A DNA stretch of 64,000 nucleotides from Thraustochytrium sp. TN22 (taxonomy: Eukaryota > Sar > Bigyra > Thraustochytrida > Thraustochytriidae). The notes beneath the pieces were generated by a model. The model saw only the letters and a list, made by a program, of their open reading frames with translations. It was not told the DNA's origin and did not search any database. The stretch covers positions 1 to 64,000 of the forward strand of contig JABLUY010000083.1 in the NCBI GenBank assembly GCA_013306675.1. The letters are read 5' to 3'. Positions 18,381-30,095 of this stretch are shown here, piece after piece; the stretch's first letter is position 1; each line of letters begins with the position of its first letter. The position numbers and the translations under genes are program-made.

Positions 18381-19532
18381 CTAGACGTGCGCGGCAGCGT
18401 GATGGTGGACGTCGTCGTCTTCGTCGTCGTAAGAACGAGAGGAGGAGCTGTGGCGCGCGTGGAGCGTGGGCAGGTCGATCTCGAGCGAGTCACCGCCAGT
18501 GAGGCGCGAAGAGGAGCTCTCGCCAGGCTTGGGCACAGGCAGGTAGCCGTCGCTGTCCGCGTCGTCAAAGTCGGGCTCGGGGTGCGGCTTGCTGGCGAGC
18601 ACGAGCATGCCGCCGAGCGTGACGAGCGTGCCGAGAATAAACATGGTCATCTGCACAGTGGAGAGGTCCTGCCACTCGCCAAAGTAGACCAGGCCGCCCG
18701 TGACGCCCGATATGATCCAGTAGCTCTGGTACACGGGCACGACGAGGAGGGAGTCGAAGCGCTTGAGGCCGTGGTTGAGAAAGGTGATCTGCAGCAGGAG
18801 GCAGATGGTCATCAAGACGATGACGAGGTAGGTCTGGATGTGCAAAAAGACGTCGTCGCCGTGCGTGGCGTCCTTGATGAGCTCCATGGTGGACTTGGCG
18901 AAAAGCACGCTCTGGCCGCCGATGATGCCGGCGAAGCCGGCGTAGCCGACCATCTCCAGGCGCTTGGTGAGATCCGGCGCAAAGGGCGAGCGGCCGCTGT
19001 CACCGAGCTGGCTCAGAAAGTAGTGGATCGCAAGCAAGATGGGCACGGTCGCGCCGTACACGGCCATGCGGTCCTCGTTGTACAGGGCCAGCAGCGTCTC
19101 GAAAGGGTAGTCCTTCTCCTCGTGGTTGGCGAAGACCACCGTCATGGCGGTGCCGACAAAGATGAGGCAGACGGCCTTGATGTCAGCGGGCGTGTGCTTC
19201 TCATCCAGCATCCAGTTGGCCATGCCCAGGTTCCAGATGAGCGAGAGCGCGGCGAGCGGCGCCAGCAGGCTCTGCGGCGCCAGCCCAAAGGCCACGAAGT
19301 CGATGATGCTGCCCACGAGCACGCACGAGAACCCCATCACCCAGCGCGGCTGGTGCCACGGGTTCACCTCGGCGTTCTGCGGCAGGCACAGCGAGTACTT
19401 TTGCAGGTTCAGCCCCAAGCACGTCACGAAGGACGCCATGACCGCCAGCACCACGCCCATGGCCACCACGAAGCCGTCGCTCAGCATGCGGTAGTTCAGG
19501 CCGTCGCCCCACGAGCCCAGCATCGCGCTCAT
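18381..19532 (-). CDS. NIPA-type magnesium transporter (paralogue A)
   Basis: 383 residues, about nine membrane helices, of the NIPA family (DMT superfamily). Hallmarks are LGLNLQKYSL in helix 1-2, FVAFGLAPQSLLAPLAALSL, GGQSVLFAKSTMELI, and the late VPVYQSYWIISGVTGG block. NIPA proteins carry Mg2+ at plasma and endosomal membranes. The C-terminal about 75 residues are a soluble tail with acidic and Ser-rich stretches and a His run near the end. The start chosen (MSAMLGSWG) follows a non-conserved Arg-rich open stretch that is likely leader. Divergent from paralogue B at 20698, with very similar core motifs, so the pair arose by inverted duplication. Transport substrate is inferred from the family. 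Confidence 0.88.
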   Translation of the reverse strand: MSAMLGSWGDGLNYRMLSDGFVVAMGVVLAVMASFVTCLGLNLQKYSLCLPQNAEVNPWHQPRWVMGFSCVLVGSIIDFVAFGLAPQSLLAPLAALSLIWNLGMANWMLDEKHTPADIKAVCLIFVGTAMTVVFANHEEKDYPFETLLALYNEDRMAVYGATVPILLAIHYFLSQLGDSGRSPFAPDLTKRLEMVGYAGFAGIIGGQSVLFAKSTMELIKDATHGDDVFLHIQTYLVIVLMTICLLLQITFLNHGLKRFDSLLVVPVYQSYWIISGVTGGLVYFGEWQDLSTVQMTMFILGTLVTLGGMLVLASKPHPEPDFDDADSDGYLPVPKPGESSSSRLTGGDSLEIDLPTLHARHSSSSRSYDDEDDDVHHHAAAHV

Positions 19533-19664
19533 CGTGCGCGCGCGCCTTGCTCTCCGCCGTCCGCCCGCCCTTGCTTGCCTGCTTGCTTGGTCGTGCGCGC
19601 GGTCGGCCGCGCGCCTCACACGCTCAGCTCAATTTCACTTGGGCAGATCCGAGGCCGCGCCGCC

Positions 19665-19704
<40 letters not shown>

Positions 19705-20697
19705 GCGCGGAGAGGCCGACCGCCGCGCCGCGCGCGCCGCGCCGCGCCGCCGCCCGGCCGCGCGCGCGCCGACCCGAGCGCGCGAGCGAGACGGAGGCGA
19801 GCGAGAGCGCGCGCGCGCGCGATCGAGGTCTGCTCCGCTGGGCTGGCCGCCCCCGGCGTTTCCGGCGCGCCCGTGCAGGGACGTGCTCCGGGCCCCCCTG
19901 CACGGGCCGGCGGCGCTGGTTCGAGCCGCGCGCGTGAGGGGCTTGCAACAAGTCAGAGGGGGGACGCCCGCCGGGAGGGATTCGCCGGGCCTGCGCGGTC
20001 GCGCCGGGGCCCAGCAGAGCACCATGGAGGACGACGACTCGGAGAGCGGCGACGACTTGCTTGCCGTGGAAGGCCCTGTTGCGCGGAAGAGGCGCGGCGC
20101 GGCGCGGCGAGGCAGGGGAAGCTAGTCGCGCAGCCCAGCGGCAGCGAAAGGCTGGCTGGTGGTGCTGGTGGTGCTGGTGCTGGTGCTGCGGCGAGTGGGT
20201 TTGGGCTTCGAAATGCCAGTGATTGCGCAGAGGGCTCGTGTCGAGGCCGTGGATGCCGCCTCGTGCCCGCCAGCCTGCCTGCCTGCCTGCACTCGCAGTC
20301 AGTGCAATGAGCCTGGACCGCAGCGAAGGTGGAGCGCTCGGATCTCAGAGCCAGTCTCACTGCACTCTCGGTTCAGAAGGCCGAGACGAAGGCGAGTCAG
20401 GCTCAGTCAGCGTCGCACCTGGGTCTGACAGAAGAACCAGCCCGCCAGCCTGAGAGAGCTGCTGCTGCTCGTGCTGGTGCTGACGCTGATTCGCTTCGCG
20501 TGCTGACACGGCTCGACCCGGACTCGGACCGCCTGCCTGCCAGGCACGGTGGTACCTCACTGCCTGATCAGGCTGCCGTTGTTGTGCCCGGTCGCTGTCG
20601 CGGTGTTCACGCCTGGCTGCAAAAGCCTGCAAACAAACCTCTCTCTCTCGCTCTCCCAGCTCAGCCTGAGAGGCTCCCAACGGCGGAGCCAGCGAGC
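19533..20697. promoter_or_regulatory. Shared upstream region of the divergent NIPA pair
   Basis: 1165 bases between the two start codons. A (CCG)n run at about 19666-19705 and a tggtgc repeat near 20158-20195 are the visible features. It should hold the promoters of both transporters. A small Kozak-context frame at 20024 is listed separately. Confidence 0.4.
20024..20125 (+). CDS. Small frame of 33 codons with strong Kozak context
   Basis: The start reads agcaccATGg. The product is acidic first (MEDDDSESGDDLL) and then Arg-rich. It lies 570 bases upstream of NIPA-B on the same strand and could be an upstream frame in its leader, a first exon, or chance. No homology recognised. Confidence 0.2.
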   Translation: MEDDDSESGDDLLAVEGPVARKRRGAARRGRGS

Positions 20698-22233
20698 ATG
20701 GGTCACGGTCTGCGCGCGCGGGCGACGCGCGCGCGGGCGACGCGCGCGCGCTGGGCGACGGCGGCCGCGGCGGTGGCGGCGGCAGCCGGGGCGGCCGCCG
20801 CCCGCGCCGAAGCGGTGTCGAGCTCGGGCGCAGCCGAAGCGGCAGGCAGCGGGGTGCGCAATGAGGAGGCCGGCGGCGACGAGGGCGGGCAGCTGTCGTC
20901 GCTGGCGAACCTCGAGAACTTCTTCGTGTTCTGCGGCGTGACGCTGGCCGTGGCGGCCTCCTTCCTGGTGTGCCTCGGGCTGGCGCTGCAAAAGGTGTCG
21001 CTGTGCATGCCGGGCAACGAGTCGGTGCCGCCGCTCAAGCAGCCCAAGTGGCTGGCCGGCTTCTCCTGCATGCTGCTGGGCAACATTTTGGACTTCTTCG
21101 CGTTCGGCATGGCGCCGCAGAGCCTGCTGGCGCCGCTTGCCGCGCTCTCGCTAGTGTGGAACCTGTCCATCTCCTCGTACATGCTCAACGAGAGCTACGA
21201 CCGCAACGACGTGCGCGCCGTGGCGCTCATCTTTGCCGGCACCAGCATCACCGTCATCTTCTCCAACCACCGTGAGCGCGGCTACTCGCTGGACGCGCTG
21301 CGCGCGCTTTACAGGCAGGAGCGCATGGTCGGCTACTTCATCGTGGTGCCGCTCCTGCTGGCCGCGCACTACGCGTTCATTCACTTTGCGTCGGAGCCCG
21401 GCGCACACAATGCGCTCTGGAAGCTTGTCGAGCTCGTCGGCTGGTGCGGGTTCGCCGGCATCACCGGCGGCCAGAGCGTACTCTTCGCCAAGTCCACGGT
21501 CGAGCTCCTCAAGGACGCGGTGCAGGGCGACGACGTCTTCCTGCACTTTGACACCTGGCTCATCATCGCCGCCATGGTTGCCTGCCTGCTCACGCAAATC
21601 ACCTTCCTCAACGGCGCCATGAAGCGCTTCGACCAGCTGTACGTCATGCCCATGTACCAGAGCTACTGGATCATCTCGGGGGTCGTGGGCGGCCTCGTGT
21701 ACTTTGGCGAGTGGGAGGACTTCTCTGCGACGCAGATTAACATGTTCCTGGTCGGCACCTTGATCACGTTGGCGGGGCTCATCGTGCTCACGCGCAAGGA
21801 GAACCACAGCCTCAGCAGCACCGGCCCGCAGCCCGCCTTCGACCCGCTGCCCAGCCGCAAGATCAGCGCCGACAGCGCCTATGGCTTTGTACAGGACGAC
21901 GACCGCGACCGCGACTTTGACGCGCGCGCCATCGCCGTCTCCGGATCCATGGACGACGCCGACGGCAACACCGGGCCCGACGACGACGACGTTGATCGCG
22001 AGGACGTCCACCTCTCCCGCCCGCGAATTGGCTCCGGCGGTCATCGCCTCAGCTACGAGAACGACCACGTCATCGAGCTTGCCACGAGGCACTCGCTCTC
22101 CCCGCGTGGCAGCCAGCGCTCCTCCTTTCGCAAGCTCAGCCACGTCTCCTCCAATGGCAGCATCGATAATCACAGTGCCAGTGAGGACCACCGCCGCCGC
22201 TCCGCCTCGTACACGCGCACGCTCGACTTGTAG
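20698..22233 (+). CDS. NIPA-type magnesium transporter (paralogue B)
   Basis: 511 residues. An Ala/Arg-rich N-terminus (about 30 residues, possibly a cleaved signal) and a polar linker precede about nine membrane helices with the NIPA motifs LGLALQKVSLCMPGNE, FFAFGMAPQSLLAPLAALSL, GGQSVLFAKSTVELLKDA and MPMYQSYWIISGVVGG. Expected role is Mg2+ transport at plasma or endosomal membranes. A hydrophilic tail of about 150 residues (rich in Asp, Ser and Arg, with many possible phosphorylation sites) is longer than in paralogue A. Start: first Met of the conserved-length reading, in an agcATGg context; the frame stays open upstream without family similarity. Divergently transcribed from paralogue A. 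Confidence 0.88.
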   Translation: MGHGLRARATRARATRARWATAAAAVAAAAGAAAARAEAVSSSGAAEAAGSGVRNEEAGGDEGGQLSSLANLENFFVFCGVTLAVAASFLVCLGLALQKVSLCMPGNESVPPLKQPKWLAGFSCMLLGNILDFFAFGMAPQSLLAPLAALSLVWNLSISSYMLNESYDRNDVRAVALIFAGTSITVIFSNHRERGYSLDALRALYRQERMVGYFIVVPLLLAAHYAFIHFASEPGAHNALWKLVELVGWCGFAGITGGQSVLFAKSTVELLKDAVQGDDVFLHFDTWLIIAAMVACLLTQITFLNGAMKRFDQLYVMPMYQSYWIISGVVGGLVYFGEWEDFSATQINMFLVGTLITLAGLIVLTRKENHSLSSTGPQPAFDPLPSRKISADSAYGFVQDDDRDRDFDARAIAVSGSMDDADGNTGPDDDDVDREDVHLSRPRIGSGGHRLSYENDHVIELATRHSLSPRGSQRSSFRKLSHVSSNGSIDNHSASEDHRRRSASYTRTLDL

Positions 22234-22941
22234 TCTTTTCAGCGCGTCGCAACCTTGGGCTCGAGCTTCACATTCATTACCGTGAGAGGCCGGCAAGACA
22301 CCGAAGCATCTGATGTAACTTACACGTCCACTAGCTCTAACGTTAGAGAAGACATGCCTTTTCATCTGCCTGCGCATGCGCACGCAAGCGAGCTGCCAAA
22401 GCCGGAGCGCGCAGCCAAGCCGGACAGGTCCAGCTCTCCGTCTCCCCTGCCACGACGCGAAGCGGCTGATGCAAAGAGAGGACGCTCTCGTGAAGCAAGA
22501 GAGGACGCTCTCGTGAAGCGCCCGATGCGAGACGCGCTCGTGATGAGCTTGACAGCGAGTTCGTCCCCACCGAGCGGGGTCGAGCTTGCGACCTCCTGAG
22601 AGTCTGAGACTGTGATGGTGATGTTGAGCAGCCAAGGCCGCGATCGCCGCCGACTCACGGTCAGCGTCTCGTCAACGGCGCGCGGGCAAAGCGCCCAAAG
22701 GCGAGCGCGAGGCGCCTCGCGCGGCGGCGGGCGGCGGCGGCGGGCGGGCGGCGGCGGCGGCGCGGGCTCGGCGCGGCTTGCGAGGCCGCTGGAGCGCGCG
22801 CGCCGCGCCGGAGCGGCGTCCCGCGGCGCGCGGGACTGGTGAGCGCGAGGCAGCGGCGGGAGCCGACCAGGGCCTGCTGCGCACGGGCGAGACGCGCGCG
22901 GGCGAGACGCGCGCGGGCGCACGCGACGCGGCGCGGGCGAG
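22234..22941. other. Intergenic region upstream of the Grx-TTL-M14 gene
   Basis: 708 bases. A perfect 23-bp direct repeat (gagaggacgctctcgtgaag core) occurs twice at about 22476-22521. The last 250 bases are CG/GGC-rich leader. No gene recognised. Confidence 0.45.
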
Positions 22942-25900
22942 ATGAGCAGGATGCGCACGAGCGTGTACGTGGGCGTTGGCCTGCTGCTGGTGCTGTGGGT
23001 GGCCATGATCCACTGGTTCGAGGTGAGCTCGCTGGAGGACGTGGCGGGCGGCGTCGAGATGATGAGCACGGTCCTCATGGAGCGCAGCGGCATGCGCGGC
23101 GGCGCTCCGGGTACGAGCGCCGCGCCGATGGACCGAGTGCAGCTCTTTATCTTGGTGGGGCTTGCCAAGTGCGACTTCACCGTGCTGGCGAGCGACACGC
23201 TCGGCCGCCTGGTGGAGGCGCACCCGAACGAGGTCATGCAGTACAAGTGGATGGCCGGGTCCAAGCCCGAGTTTCGCGAGTGGCTCGTGGTGCGCAAGAG
23301 CACGGGCCAGGTGCCCAAGTCCCACGAGACTGCGCCGGTGGTCTTTCTGCGCATCGGCGAAACGCGGATGTTTCTCGGTGGTGTGCAGCAGCTGCTCGAC
23401 TACATCGACATGCGCTTCCCAGACCTCGACATCTCCATGGAGTTCTCGCGTTATAATGCCCTGAGCGCAGGCAAGAGCGGCGCGAAAAGCGGCAGCGGCG
23501 GCCTCGGCGGCGGCAAGACTTCTTCGAACTGGGCCGCCGCCACTCCACCACCGACCTCGCTCAGGCCTTCCGACGCCTACGACGAACAGACGAGCGCGCA
23601 GGCCGTAAGCGGCGACGGAGACAGCACGCCGGAGGATGCCGAGCCGCCCGTGGACGGCGACCCGGGCCTCGGCGACAACCCCGAGCAGGCGCCGGCGCCC
23701 GTTGCGGCCTCCCAGGCCGTCTTTTTGCATTCGCCGCTGAACCAGCTGCAGCAGCAGGTGCCGCTGCGCAAGAAGAGCGTCGTCACGACGTACCGCGTGA
23801 CGGAAAAGCGCGTGACCAACTACCGGCCAATGATCGAGTTCTTGCGATCGCGCGGGTGGGCCAACATCCCGATGGCGCCGCTTCTGGCGACCTGGATCTT
23901 GGTGCAAGACCAGAAGACGGCCGCCTATGTGCTGAGCCGCTACCACAAGGCCATCGTCAACAACATCGGATACGGCGGTCAGAGCTGCTTCGGCGGCACC
24001 AAGGGCTACCAGCTGCGATGCCGGTCCGAGTTCGCGGCCAACGCTGGGTGCGCCTACGACGACCTGGGCGTGCAGCCGCCGCAGTACCGGCTGTGGTTCA
24101 ACGACGAGTGCCGAAAGTTCTTCGACCAGGTGTGCCCGGTCAAGCCGGACGCCATGTGGATCGAAAAGCCCAGCGGCGGCCAGCACGGCGCCGGCATGCA
24201 GGTGCACCAGGGCTGCGGCAAGCTGCACGCCACGCATGGCACCTGCACCGGGTCTGGCAAAAAGTACATCGCCATGCCGTACCTGTCGCCGGCGCTCCTG
24301 AGCGGCCACAAGTTCGACGTGCGCTCGTACCTGCTGGTGGCCAGCCTGGACCCGCTGCTCGTGTTTTACCATGATGGCTTTGCGCGCAAGGCCGGCTCGG
24401 CGTACTCGTCGGACGTCTCGGACACGAATGCGCACATCACCAACGCGGTCTCGCAGTCGTCCGAGGACCACTTCTACGAGTTCACGCGCCTGCAGCGCGT
24501 GTTGCACGAGGAGTCCGGCTTCCCAGCCGACTTCATGACGCGCATCTTCCGCGAGCACGCCATCAAGGTGCAGCAGTACGTGTTCCAGGCGTCGCGTCAG
24601 ACCATGAAGCTGCGCAAGAAGGGCGTCTACCAGATCTTTGCGCTGGACTGGATCATCGACGACGACGGCGGCATCCACATGCTCGAGGCGAACTCGAACC
24701 CGCTCGTCACCGTCTACTCGGACATGCGCGAGGAGTTTACCGAGACCTGGGACTCCATGGTCGACCTTGTGCTTCGCATCCACACGGAGCCGGCCTCGCT
24801 CTTTAGCGCGGAACGCCCCGAGCTGCGCACCACGCCGGCCGACCAGCGCTTCGTCTACCGCAACTGGCATCTCATGTTTAGCGAGCTCGAGGAGCGCGCC
24901 TCGGGCGCGAGCTTCGACCCGTGCTCCACGCGCATCAAGCAGTTTAGCGTCCAGGCGGCCGGCAAGTCGCGCACGCTCGCCCGCGGGACGGTCGAGGCTG
25001 GCGCTGATGAGTCCTCCGACCGTCCCCAGGCCGAGGGCGGCGTCTCGCTCCCGCTCGCGTCGCCTTCGGCTTCGGCCTCGGCCTCGCTGCCGAGCGCCCA
25101 GGGCGCCGAGACGCCCTACGCCGTGACGGCGCGGGACGTGGAGCGCGCGATCCGCGAAGGCGCCTCGCGGCCCTGCATTCCGCTGGACGTGACCACTGAC
25201 AGCCGCTTCAAGGGCTGCGTGCGCATCGACCGAGGCCTCGGGCCCAACGACATGGTAACGCGCTGCGAGCTGGATGCGAGCTACTTTTACGTCATTGAGC
25301 CGGCGCTGGAGGCCGGTGAGGAGCGATCCAACTGCTACCCGATCGTCATGGTGGCGGCCGGCGTGCATGGCAACGAGCACGCCGGTGTGGTGGCGGCAAA
25401 CTTCGTGCGCCGCACCTGGACGCCGCGCAGCGCACGCCTCGTGGTCATCGAGCGCCTCAACGCGCGCGCCGTCGCGTCCAAGTCGCGCTACATCCCGCGC
25501 GTCTCGCAGGCCGAGCGCGACCTGAACCGCAACTTCCCCGAGACTGGCCCGGTCGGTTCCCTCGCGCGCGCGATCTGGGCCGTCGTGCGCGAGCTGCAGC
25601 CGCACATCTTTATTGACCTGCACGAGGGCTGGGGCGTGTACAACAAGCTCAGGAAGAACTCCGGCGGCGCTCTCGTGGGCAATCCCAACTTCAGCAAGGG
25701 CAGCTCCATCATCTCCACTGAGCTCGCCGCGCCCGTCGCCAAGTACATGATCAACAAGGTCAACAAGGCCACCGTCACCGATCCCTCGCGCCACTTTCTC
25801 TCCATCACGCCGCCCATTAGCACCGGCCTCGCCAGCATGATTGACCGCAGCTTCGCCTCGCTTGTCATGGTGCTCGAGACCACCTCCAAGGGCCAGCCGC

Positions 25901-26412
25901 TCTCGCTGCGCGCGCAGCAGCAGCTCATCATGGTGGGCGCCTGTCTCTCGCTGCTGCAGCTCGTCCCCAAGGCCTTCAACCCCATTGCCGGCTTCGACCC
26001 GCAGTACGCCTGCGTCGCCGGCTCCTCCGGCTGCGCGCTCGCCTACCCGGGCGACCGCGCCGCCGCCATCTCCGGCCTCGCCGCGCCTGCGCTCGATCTC
26101 GACCTCGACTCCGCGCTCGACGCGCTCGACGCGCTCGACTCCATCGCGCCCGTGGCCGGCGGTGCCGACGATGTGCGCCAGGCGGACGAACTTCTCAGTC
26201 AAGCCGACGACCTTCAAGCCGACGACCTTCAGGCCGACGACATCTTGGCCAGCCATGTACAGCAGGACGCCTTCGACACGCAGCAGGCTGACGACCTTGA
26301 CCTCCTGGGCGACGACACGGAGACCGTCGACCTTTTCGACGGTGACGCCAGCGAGGACGACACTGCCGAGATCGAGGACGACGAGTCCGAGGCTGTCACC
26401 TTTGTTCGATGA
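22942..26412 (+). CDS. Membrane-anchored glutaredoxin-like / TTL-like / M14 carboxypeptidase-like fusion protein
   Basis: 1156 residues. Residues 7-26 form one hydrophobic segment near the N-terminus (type II signal anchor). Residues 65-165 look glutaredoxin-like: single Cys77 in KCDFT, a TAPVVFL cis-Pro strand and FLGGVQQLLDYI. Residues about 280-615 are a tubulin-tyrosine-ligase-like ATP-grasp ligase: WIEKPSGGQHGAG (Lys409), then YLSPALLSGHKFDVRSYLL and MLEANSNP (Glu582, Asn584). Residues about 700-1000 are M14/AstE-like: GVHGNEHAG (His809, Glu812), RDLNRNFP, DLHEGW (His894) and VLETT (Glu979), so all zinc ligands and the general base are present. The tail is acidic, with repeated QADDL units. 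The ligase part holds several extra Cys, as expected for an oxidising lumen. One chain thus couples amino-acid ligation with amide hydrolysis, probably in the secretory pathway. Substrate unknown; it need not be tubulin. Confidence 0.82.
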   Translation: MSRMRTSVYVGVGLLLVLWVAMIHWFEVSSLEDVAGGVEMMSTVLMERSGMRGGAPGTSAAPMDRVQLFILVGLAKCDFTVLASDTLGRLVEAHPNEVMQYKWMAGSKPEFREWLVVRKSTGQVPKSHETAPVVFLRIGETRMFLGGVQQLLDYIDMRFPDLDISMEFSRYNALSAGKSGAKSGSGGLGGGKTSSNWAAATPPPTSLRPSDAYDEQTSAQAVSGDGDSTPEDAEPPVDGDPGLGDNPEQAPAPVAASQAVFLHSPLNQLQQQVPLRKKSVVTTYRVTEKRVTNYRPMIEFLRSRGWANIPMAPLLATWILVQDQKTAAYVLSRYHKAIVNNIGYGGQSCFGGTKGYQLRCRSEFAANAGCAYDDLGVQPPQYRLWFNDECRKFFDQVCPVKPDAMWIEKPSGGQHGAGMQVHQGCGKLHATHGTCTGSGKKYIAMPYLSPALLSGHKFDVRSYLLVASLDPLLVFYHDGFARKAGSAYSSDVSDTNAHITNAVSQSSEDHFYEFTRLQRVLHEESGFPADFMTRIFREHAIKVQQYVFQASRQTMKLRKKGVYQIFALDWIIDDDGGIHMLEANSNPLVTVYSDMREEFTETWDSMVDLVLRIHTEPASLFSAERPELRTTPADQRFVYRNWHLMFSELEERASGASFDPCSTRIKQFSVQAAGKSRTLARGTVEAGADESSDRPQAEGGVSLPLASPSASASASLPSAQGAETPYAVTARDVERAIREGASRPCIPLDVTTDSRFKGCVRIDRGLGPNDMVTRCELDASYFYVIEPALEAGEERSNCYPIVMVAAGVHGNEHAGVVAANFVRRTWTPRSARLVVIERLNARAVASKSRYIPRVSQAERDLNRNFPETGPVGSLARAIWAVVRELQPHIFIDLHEGWGVYNKLRKNSGGALVGNPNFSKGSSIISTELAAPVAKYMINKVNKATVTDPSRHFLSITPPISTGLASMIDRSFASLVMVLETTSKGQPLSLRAQQQLIMVGACLSLLQLVPKAFNPIAGFDPQYACVAGSSGCALAYPGDRAAAISGLAAPALDLDLDSALDALDALDSIAPVAGGADDVRQADELLSQADDLQADDLQADDILASHVQQDAFDTQQADDLDLLGDDTETVDLFDGDASEDDTAEIEDDESEAVTFVR

Positions 26413-28682: not shown

Positions 28683-30095
28683 ATGAACGGCGTGCGCTCA
28701 ACTCGCAAGCGCTATCCGCCCGTGCGCGAGTGGCTGCCGGCGTACAAGTGGAAAGATGACCTGGCGTACGACGTGGCAGCGGGCCTGACGGTGGGCGTCA
28801 TGGCCATTCCGCAGTCGCTCTCGTACGCGCTTATCGCCGGCCTGCCGCCGGCGTATGGCTTGTACTCTGACCTGCAGATCTGCTACCCAATCTTCGGCTC
28901 ATCCAAATACCTGGTGGTCGGGCCAGTGGCAGTCATGAGCCTCATGTCACGGTTCGCCATGGAGAAACTGCACTACGAGGAGGGCACCAAGGAGTGGATC
29001 GACATGGTGTGCTTCCTGTCGGTGCTCGTGGCCGTCATCCAGTTCGCCATCGGCCTGCAGGGCCTTGGGCAGCGCATCAGCGCTCTGCTGCCGCCTGCTG
29101 CCATCGCCGGCTTCTCGTCCGCCGCTGCACTCATCATCGGCAGCACGCAGCTCGCGGCGCTCTTTGGCATCGCCAAGTGCAAGGCTCCAGATGGGCAGTC
29201 CTGCGGCTTCGCGCGCAGCGTCTGGCACACGGCCACGCACGCAGGAGATCTGGACTGGCCCACGCTTGCCTGCGGTCTCATCAGCTTCGCCACGCTGCAC
29301 GGCTTTCGCGCGCTGGAGCCCGGCGCCGGACGCGACGGCGTGGGGGGTCGGCGGCCCACGCTGCTCCGCAGCCTCCTGCCCAAGCTTGGCGCGCTCTTTG
29401 TCGTGCTGGCCAGCACAAGCGTGCTGTACTTTGGCGGCGAGGCCGTGGAGGCCGGCGGCCCCCTTGCCAGCGTGCGCCAGGTCGGCTACATCCCAAGCGG
29501 CCTGCCGTCACCGCGCTGGATGCCGACCTTGCCGGCGTCCTGGGACGTGCTCATGCGCCTGGCCGTCTCCTCGGTGCCCATCGCACTCGTGGGCTTCGCG
29601 GAGGCGTCTGCTATTGCCAAGGCCAGCACAAAGCTGCGTGGCGAGGACGTGGACGCCATCTCCGACGACCACGAGGTGCTGGCGCTCGCCTTTTGCAACG
29701 CCTTCACCGCCTGGGTCGGCGGCTACCCGGTGACGGGGTCCTTCTCGCGCACGGCCATTAACGCCGAGAGCGGCGCGCGCTCCGCGCTCAGCACAGCCGT
29801 GGCGGCCGTCGCCGTCGTCATCGTGCTGCTCTTCTGCACCCCCTTTTTGGCGCGCCTGCCCAAGGCCGCTGTTTCCGCCATCGTGCTCTCTGCCGTCGTC
29901 AAGCTTGTTGACTACCGCGAGTTCGTCGAGCTGCTTCACGCCTACCAGCGCGACTCGCGCGACCGCCGCGTATGGGTTTTTGCGATCGTCTTCGCGGCTG
30001 CCCTCCTGGTCGGCGTCGAGCAGGGCCTGCTGGCCGGCGTGTGCACACATTACGCGCTCCGCAAGGTCGAACAGGGCGCGCGTGCGGTTGTATAA
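28683..30095 (+). CDS. SulP/SLC26-type anion transporter lacking STAS domain
   Basis: 470 residues, 10-12 hydrophobic segments. The SulP signature appears at once: DVAAGLTVGVMAIPQSLSYA (residues 30-49) followed by AGLPPAYGLYSDL. Later come VGPVAVMSL and the GYPVTGSFSRTAIN block, the family's second fingerprint. SulP proteins move sulfate, bicarbonate or other anions across the plasma membrane, often with protons. The protein stops shortly after the last membrane helix (ending RKVEQGARAVV), so the cytosolic STAS domain of usual 550-750-residue members is missing. No STAS-coding exon is seen in the 530 bases before the next gene. The ATG gives a normal family N-terminus. Substrate not determinable. 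Confidence 0.88.
   Translation: MNGVRSTRKRYPPVREWLPAYKWKDDLAYDVAAGLTVGVMAIPQSLSYALIAGLPPAYGLYSDLQICYPIFGSSKYLVVGPVAVMSLMSRFAMEKLHYEEGTKEWIDMVCFLSVLVAVIQFAIGLQGLGQRISALLPPAAIAGFSSAAALIIGSTQLAALFGIAKCKAPDGQSCGFARSVWHTATHAGDLDWPTLACGLISFATLHGFRALEPGAGRDGVGGRRPTLLRSLLPKLGALFVVLASTSVLYFGGEAVEAGGPLASVRQVGYIPSGLPSPRWMPTLPASWDVLMRLAVSSVPIALVGFAEASAIAKASTKLRGEDVDAISDDHEVLALAFCNAFTAWVGGYPVTGSFSRTAINAESGARSALSTAVAAVAVVIVLLFCTPFLARLPKAAVSAIVLSAVVKLVDYREFVELLHAYQRDSRDRRVWVFAIVFAAALLVGVEQGLLAGVCTHYALRKVEQGARAVV

Follow-up and report, generated by a model that had tools for sequence, protein, structure and literature searches.

TTL-type ligases have been studied as cytosolic tubulin enzymes, and yeast Grx6 and Grx7 are anchored monothiol glutaredoxins (Grxs) of the early secretory pathway. 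Ligases paired with opposing hydrolases are described in other families. In the excerpts of the two sources, trypanothione synthetase-amidase carries an ATP-grasp ligase and a hydrolase with opposed reactions on one chain (PMC11124245), and the glutamate ligase RimK has its own dedicated reversing protease, RimB (PMC12239564). The former demonstrates that such a ligase-hydrolase pair can share one chain. Here, a single open frame encoding a Grx-like/TTL/M14 fusion protein is analyzed within a window of 64,000 nucleotides of Thraustochytrium sp. TN22 (contig JABLUY010000083.1). We give about an even chance to the reading that this protein sits in the secretory pathway, most likely in the Golgi, as a type II membrane protein in which a lumenal TTL ligase and an M14 carboxypeptidase are tethered to add, trim or edit.

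One coding chain with ligase and hydrolase domains

The fusion frame begins with the first ATG, and 34 codons before it, at 22840, lies an in-frame stop; the coordinates, the reading frame and the residues named in an earlier note, made from the sequence alone, are correct. Third-position G+C is 0.84 to 0.97 across all eight segments tested in the frame and 0.73 in the flanks (600 bases upstream, 450 bases downstream), in a window with G+C of about 0.66. The linker between the ligase and the hydrolase has a third-position G+C of 0.90, contains no stop, and shows no in-frame intron candidate in residues 660 to 745 under a crude GT-AG consensus. Thus, the locus reads as one coding chain, as the earlier note had proposed, rather than as two genes, and the exon skip between the domains that it had contemplated finds no splice candidate there. 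The first linker (residues 166 to 276), by comparison, holds six GT-AG candidates, all with one common donor; an in-frame intron may lie there but would leave the ligase and the hydrolase unseparated. Judged from the sequence, there is good support for the individual domains and for their union in a single chain.

The ligase domain is a member of the TTL/TTLL family, with a PF03133 match of 78.5 bits against a cut-off of 20.1. K409, D459, R461, N501, D569, E582 and N584 align with their counterparts in two classical TTLLs, and the three core residues singled out in the earlier note (Lys409, Glu582 and Asn584) all fall inside the aligned motifs. A profile built from the four closest own-genome sequences matched the solved structures 5vlq (E 8.7e-22), which we take to be the TTLL3 glycylase, TTL (E of about 1e-20), TTLL7 (1e-18) and TTLL6 (about 1e-17).

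The hydrolase domain carries the M14-type site that had been noticed from the sequence: H809, E812, H894 and E979 are invariant in all nine aligned M14 domains, the fusion included. The alignment took in seven of nine bacterial loci; of the other two, left out by eye, one (L049) has a frame that ends in unrelated sequence near a contig end and one (L057) is of a different AstE type. PF24827 (AstE/AspA) scored 38.9 and 41.7 bits against a cut-off of 25, with a match that spans only the first third of the profile. The best PDB profile match is MpaA (E 9.9e-10). The Pfam family of Csd4, peptidase M99, scored 14.0 bits, under its cut-off of 27, yet Csd4 is the nearest fold of the predicted model. 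That model has the M14 fold. A scan of the fusion against Pfam listed, at E up to 10, only TTL, AstE_AspA_cat and YheC/D, and no Cys-His amidase. The hydrolase matches listed from the profile search and fold comparison are MpaA, REP34, AstE/AspA and Csd4; no cytosolic carboxypeptidase (CCP) structure is named among them, which does not by itself exclude CCP kinship. Of the proposed role as an eraser of what TTLs add, the intact hydrolase motifs stand, but given these matches the removal of TTL-added residues is an analogy with CCPs.

The N-terminal domain was recognized through its relatives, because it matched no Pfam family at E up to 10, PF00462 included; the whole fusion chain used alone found no Grx or MDH1B structure. 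Own-genome relatives lie on contigs C110 (E 3.5e-5), C12 and C409. Their profile without the fusion row recovers the fusion row at 95.4% (hhalign) and MDH1B chains at E 7.4e-8, and the joint profile including that row matches MDH1B at E 5.7e-8 and E. coli Grx1 at E 0.007. Compared with six standard Grx domains of the same genome, the Grx-like profile reaches 80.7%. The PDB matches of an earlier profile were set aside, because that profile included a standard Grx. A Grx fold of residues 63 to 165 is therefore probable, and the domain would be of the MDH1B-type family, as seen through relatives only. Cys77 and TAPVVF lie within it, as the earlier note had it, but the redox control suggested there is a guess, because recognition came only through relatives, the family is of the MDH1B type, and CDFT has one cysteine rather than a dithiol CxxC. 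Cys77 aligns with a cysteine in the C110 and C12 relatives; the C409 fragment has a serine there, a position that is unsure because the fragment begins at an apparent splice site.

Two relatives of this domain were observed in other settings. On C110, a free Grx-like protein of 103 amino acids (L010:2722-3030) has CGFY and ends in CTIS, which resembles a prenylation signal. On C409 (L048, G000:C409:366294-369545), the frame at 10-1779 of the minus strand looks by eye like a thioredoxin/glutathione reductase with the same Grx-like domain on its N-terminal side, and it ends in GC-TGA-G-TAA, the selenocysteine GCUG tail pattern.

Features of the fusion gene, in window positions
Feature	Residues	Positions	Strand	Basis and marks
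Grx-like/TTL/M14 fusion protein, single open frame	1156 amino acids	22942..26412	+	Open-frame list, coding statistics
Hydrophobic segment, probable type II signal anchor	8-26	22963..23019	+	Kyte-Doolittle 2.1 over 19 residues; R3 and R5 before segment
Divergent glutaredoxin-fold domain (probable)	63-165	23128..23436	+	Own-genome relatives, hhalign, joint profile; Cys77 in CDFT, TAPVVF, FLGG
Low-complexity linker 1	166-276	23437..23769	+	Sequence composition
TTL-like ATP-grasp ligase	277-668	23770..24945	+	PF03133 E 6.6e-22, alignments, PDB profile search; K409, KFDVR 457-461, HITN 498-501, D569, E582, N584
Linker between ligase and hydrolase	669-740	24946..25161	+	Coding by third-position G+C
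M14-superfamily metallohydrolase	741-1022	25162..26007	+	PF24827 E 8.4e-10, alignment, model and fold comparison; H809, E812, H894, R849, N862, R863, E979
Acidic low-complexity C-terminal tail	1023-1156	26008..26409	+	Composition; 37 Asp/Glu, 3 Lys/Arg

A TTL gene family and its putative membrane anchors

The genome (37.9 Mb in 453 contigs) was searched and holds at least 47 TTL-profile matches in at least 41 open frames; a further relative, on contig C46, came from the whole-protein search and has no Pfam match. To judge by sequence, the fusion gene is one member of an own-genome TTL family of its kind, which the earlier note overlooked. Eleven genes of this kind, the fusion and 10 paralogs, were compared. 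The catalytic residues are intact in the first TTL domain of nine of them and degenerate in those on C84 and C46. Three genes, on C7, C233 and C310 (L005, L029 and L028), have tandem TTL domains, of which the first is intact and the second lacks ExN by eye. In a tree of 19 TTL domains, the 13 of the fusion's kind are split at 100/98 from six classical TTLLs (two from earlier loci, four from the genome's TTL match list). The fusion stands beside the C402 domain at 88/86, short of the starred level of support.

Cysteines at positions 370, 390, 435 and 661 occur in all 11 domains of the fusion's kind and in neither of the two classical TTLLs. Cys349 and Cys360 are both present in five of the 11 and both absent in six, behaving as disulfide partners would, in sequences that are related and not independent. 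Among the domains compared, the extra cysteines that had been remarked on in the ligase part are particular to this kind in their four-position pattern, but the bare total is not distinctive.

The N-terminal hydrophobic segment reported before is the most hydrophobic 19-residue stretch of the whole protein. Its type II charge pattern predicts that the C-terminal part is lumenal. A hydrophobic segment also precedes the domain in all 10 TTL paralogs and in a separate M14 gene of the same genome, with best 19-residue scores of 1.65 to 2.74. This M14 gene (contig C420, L009:1701-3587), missed in the earlier note, has the segment at its own N terminus. The TTL family of the fusion's kind appears to face the secretory lumen.

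Proposed lumenal mechanism and its alternatives

From the anatomy of the chain, we infer its topology, both activities, a shared substrate, and any coupling between the two. The chain would enter the secretory pathway by its anchor, with the short tail cytosolic and all else lumenal. There, the TTL domain would spend ATP to attach an amino acid to a secreted or surface-exposed protein or peptide, at a carboxylate of either the C terminus or an acidic side chain. As a zinc carboxypeptidase, the M14 domain would bind the free carboxylate of the terminal residue (presumably through R849, N862 and R863) and cleave off that residue by E979, presumably the base, and by zinc presumably held by H809, E812 and H894. 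With both enzymes on one tether, the length or extent of the modification could be fixed at one place, or wrong additions taken off. The Grx-like domain, sharing this compartment, would serve in thiol chemistry or in docking.

More tentatively, and with less confidence than the mechanism itself, the secretory lumen of this lineage may run its own amino-acid ligation code apart from the tubulin code, with at least 11 anchored TTL-type genes (nine intact) and an M14 eraser that occurs in two forms: free, as on C420, and as a cis-acting editor within one of the ligases. If a clade of lumen-facing TTLs is real, polypeptides outside the cytosol would likewise carry ligated amino acids, and the lumen would have to be supplied with both ATP and amino acids. 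With ligase and carboxypeptidase on one chain, the balance of addition and removal is testable with one purified protein.

Several observations weigh against this mechanism. Upstream hydrophobic segments are a nonspecific sign in this GC-rich genome: one control, L027, has such a segment too, probably before its start codon, and the classical control L013 offers just 34 residues upstream for comparison, so the anchor sign is weak for the paralogs; it is firmer for the fusion, where the segment follows immediately after the first ATG. Total cysteine does not tell the kinds apart, as L013 also has eight in its domain. The single N-glycosylation sequon of the fusion compares with an expectation of 3.8 from shuffled sequences, 9.6% of which are as low, so this count lends the lumen no support. 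The lumenal setting proposed earlier is favored by the type II charge pattern and by the cysteine pattern, found in the 10 paralogs and absent from the two classical TTLLs, but not by the sequons. The nearest solved relatives of the Grx-like domain are MDH1B chains, and MDH1B is axonemal. The hydrolase model has a predicted local distance difference test score (pLDDT) below 50 at model residues 109-119, 121-124, 158-186 and 202-221.

The fusion was also seen once, in one genome. Searches of prokaryote and viral collections found no relative of the whole fusion beyond its own genome, and viral contigs held no relative of the hydrolase or of the ligase. Bacterial relatives of the hydrolase were found at nine loci, eight in Myxococcales, Labilithrix, Sandaracinaceae or Deltaproteobacteria metagenome-assembled genomes and one in an unplaced bacterium. 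At six of these loci, 9 of the 41 candidate neighbor frames were scanned against Pfam and gave no ATP-grasp match; in this partial look, no bacterial ligase-hydrolase pair was found. A single gene is thus the only known case of this domain order. Mixed ligase/hydrolase and Grx/ligase alignments paired domains incorrectly and were not used.

The same anatomy would serve a maturation in series, with no reversal: the M14 domain would take the C-terminal residue off a secreted protein before the TTL domain attaches a new one. Both chemistries act at a terminal carboxylate, as known for the families, but the sequence holds nothing that tells series action from reversal; we consider this order of events unlikely.

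It is improbable that the protein faces the cytosol as a tubulin-code enzyme, a TTLL with a deglutamylase-like hydrolase, anchored in a membrane close to the flagellum. Classical TTLLs and their CCP partners do act on tubulin, and the MDH1B kinship and the few sequons would fit. However, the charge pattern predicts the opposite side, the ligase has the cysteine pattern absent from the two classical enzymes compared and a clade of its own, and the listed hydrolase matches are MpaA, REP34, AstE/AspA and Csd4. A similarly low probability attaches to a small-molecule enzyme that makes and hydrolyzes a peptide-like metabolite, as trypanothione synthetase-amidase does, with no protein modified. The precedent of that enzyme speaks for it, as do the nearest hydrolase matches: N-acyl amino acids are the substrates of AstE/AspA, and murein peptides those of MpaA/Csd4. 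Conversely, TTL-type domains are known to act on proteins, and the 10 paralogs have the same kind of ligase and showed no match to the hydrolase.

Finally, it is very improbable that the single gene is an artefact made of two genes or of an in-frame read-through: although long open frames are frequent at such G+C, the two-gene case was rejected on the linker's third-position G+C, its lack of stops and the absence of splice candidates between the enzymes, and no strongly hydrophobic segment precedes the M14 domain of the fusion, whereas one precedes the separate M14 gene.

Other frames and comparison with known systems

Further frames were recorded in the window and genome. Upstream of the fusion, 18381-19619 (minus strand) and 20329-22233 (plus strand) are divergent and mutually similar, of a multi-pass, NIPA-like magnesium-transporter type by eye; downstream, 28683-30095 (plus strand) has the look of a SulP-type anion transporter. 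The separate M14 gene on C420 has a glutamine run within its hydrolase domain, between two conserved motifs. On C395 (L025), an AstE/AspA domain starts a frame of about 950 amino acids, the rest of which has no Pfam match. On C124 (L058, L059), a 3,044-residue frame for a polyunsaturated fatty acid synthase of the PfaA type adjoins a divergent frame of 2,083 amino acids; such a synthase marks thraustochytrids, and a thraustochytrid source was inferred from it.

In openly licensed papers, the titles and abstract openings among the matches listed name no TTL-M14 fusion or lumenal TTL family. With the TTL/TTLL family, the fusion shares the ATP-grasp core with K, KFDxR, HxTN, D and ExN motifs; it differs in its anchor, its disulfide-like cysteine pattern, its own clade and the attached hydrolase. 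The MDH1B N-terminal domain shares the Grx-like family match, but, unlike MDH1B and yeast Grx6/Grx7, the fusion has its Grx-like domain joined to TTL and M14 and without a Pfam Grx match. The Csd4/peptidase M99, MpaA, REP34 and AstE-AspA group shares the HxxE...R...NR...H...E motif set and the fold, whereas the fusion hydrolase is eukaryotic and ligase-attached. Trypanothione and glutathionylspermidine synthetase-amidases are cytosolic, with a Cys-His amidase in place of an M14 zinc enzyme and a different ATP-grasp family. What the excerpt on these enzymes describes in common with the fusion is an ATP-grasp ligase and a hydrolase in one chain. RimK and RimB differ in being separate bacterial proteins, RimB being a retropepsin-like aspartic protease. 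The fusion is thus a new combination built from known kinds of domains.
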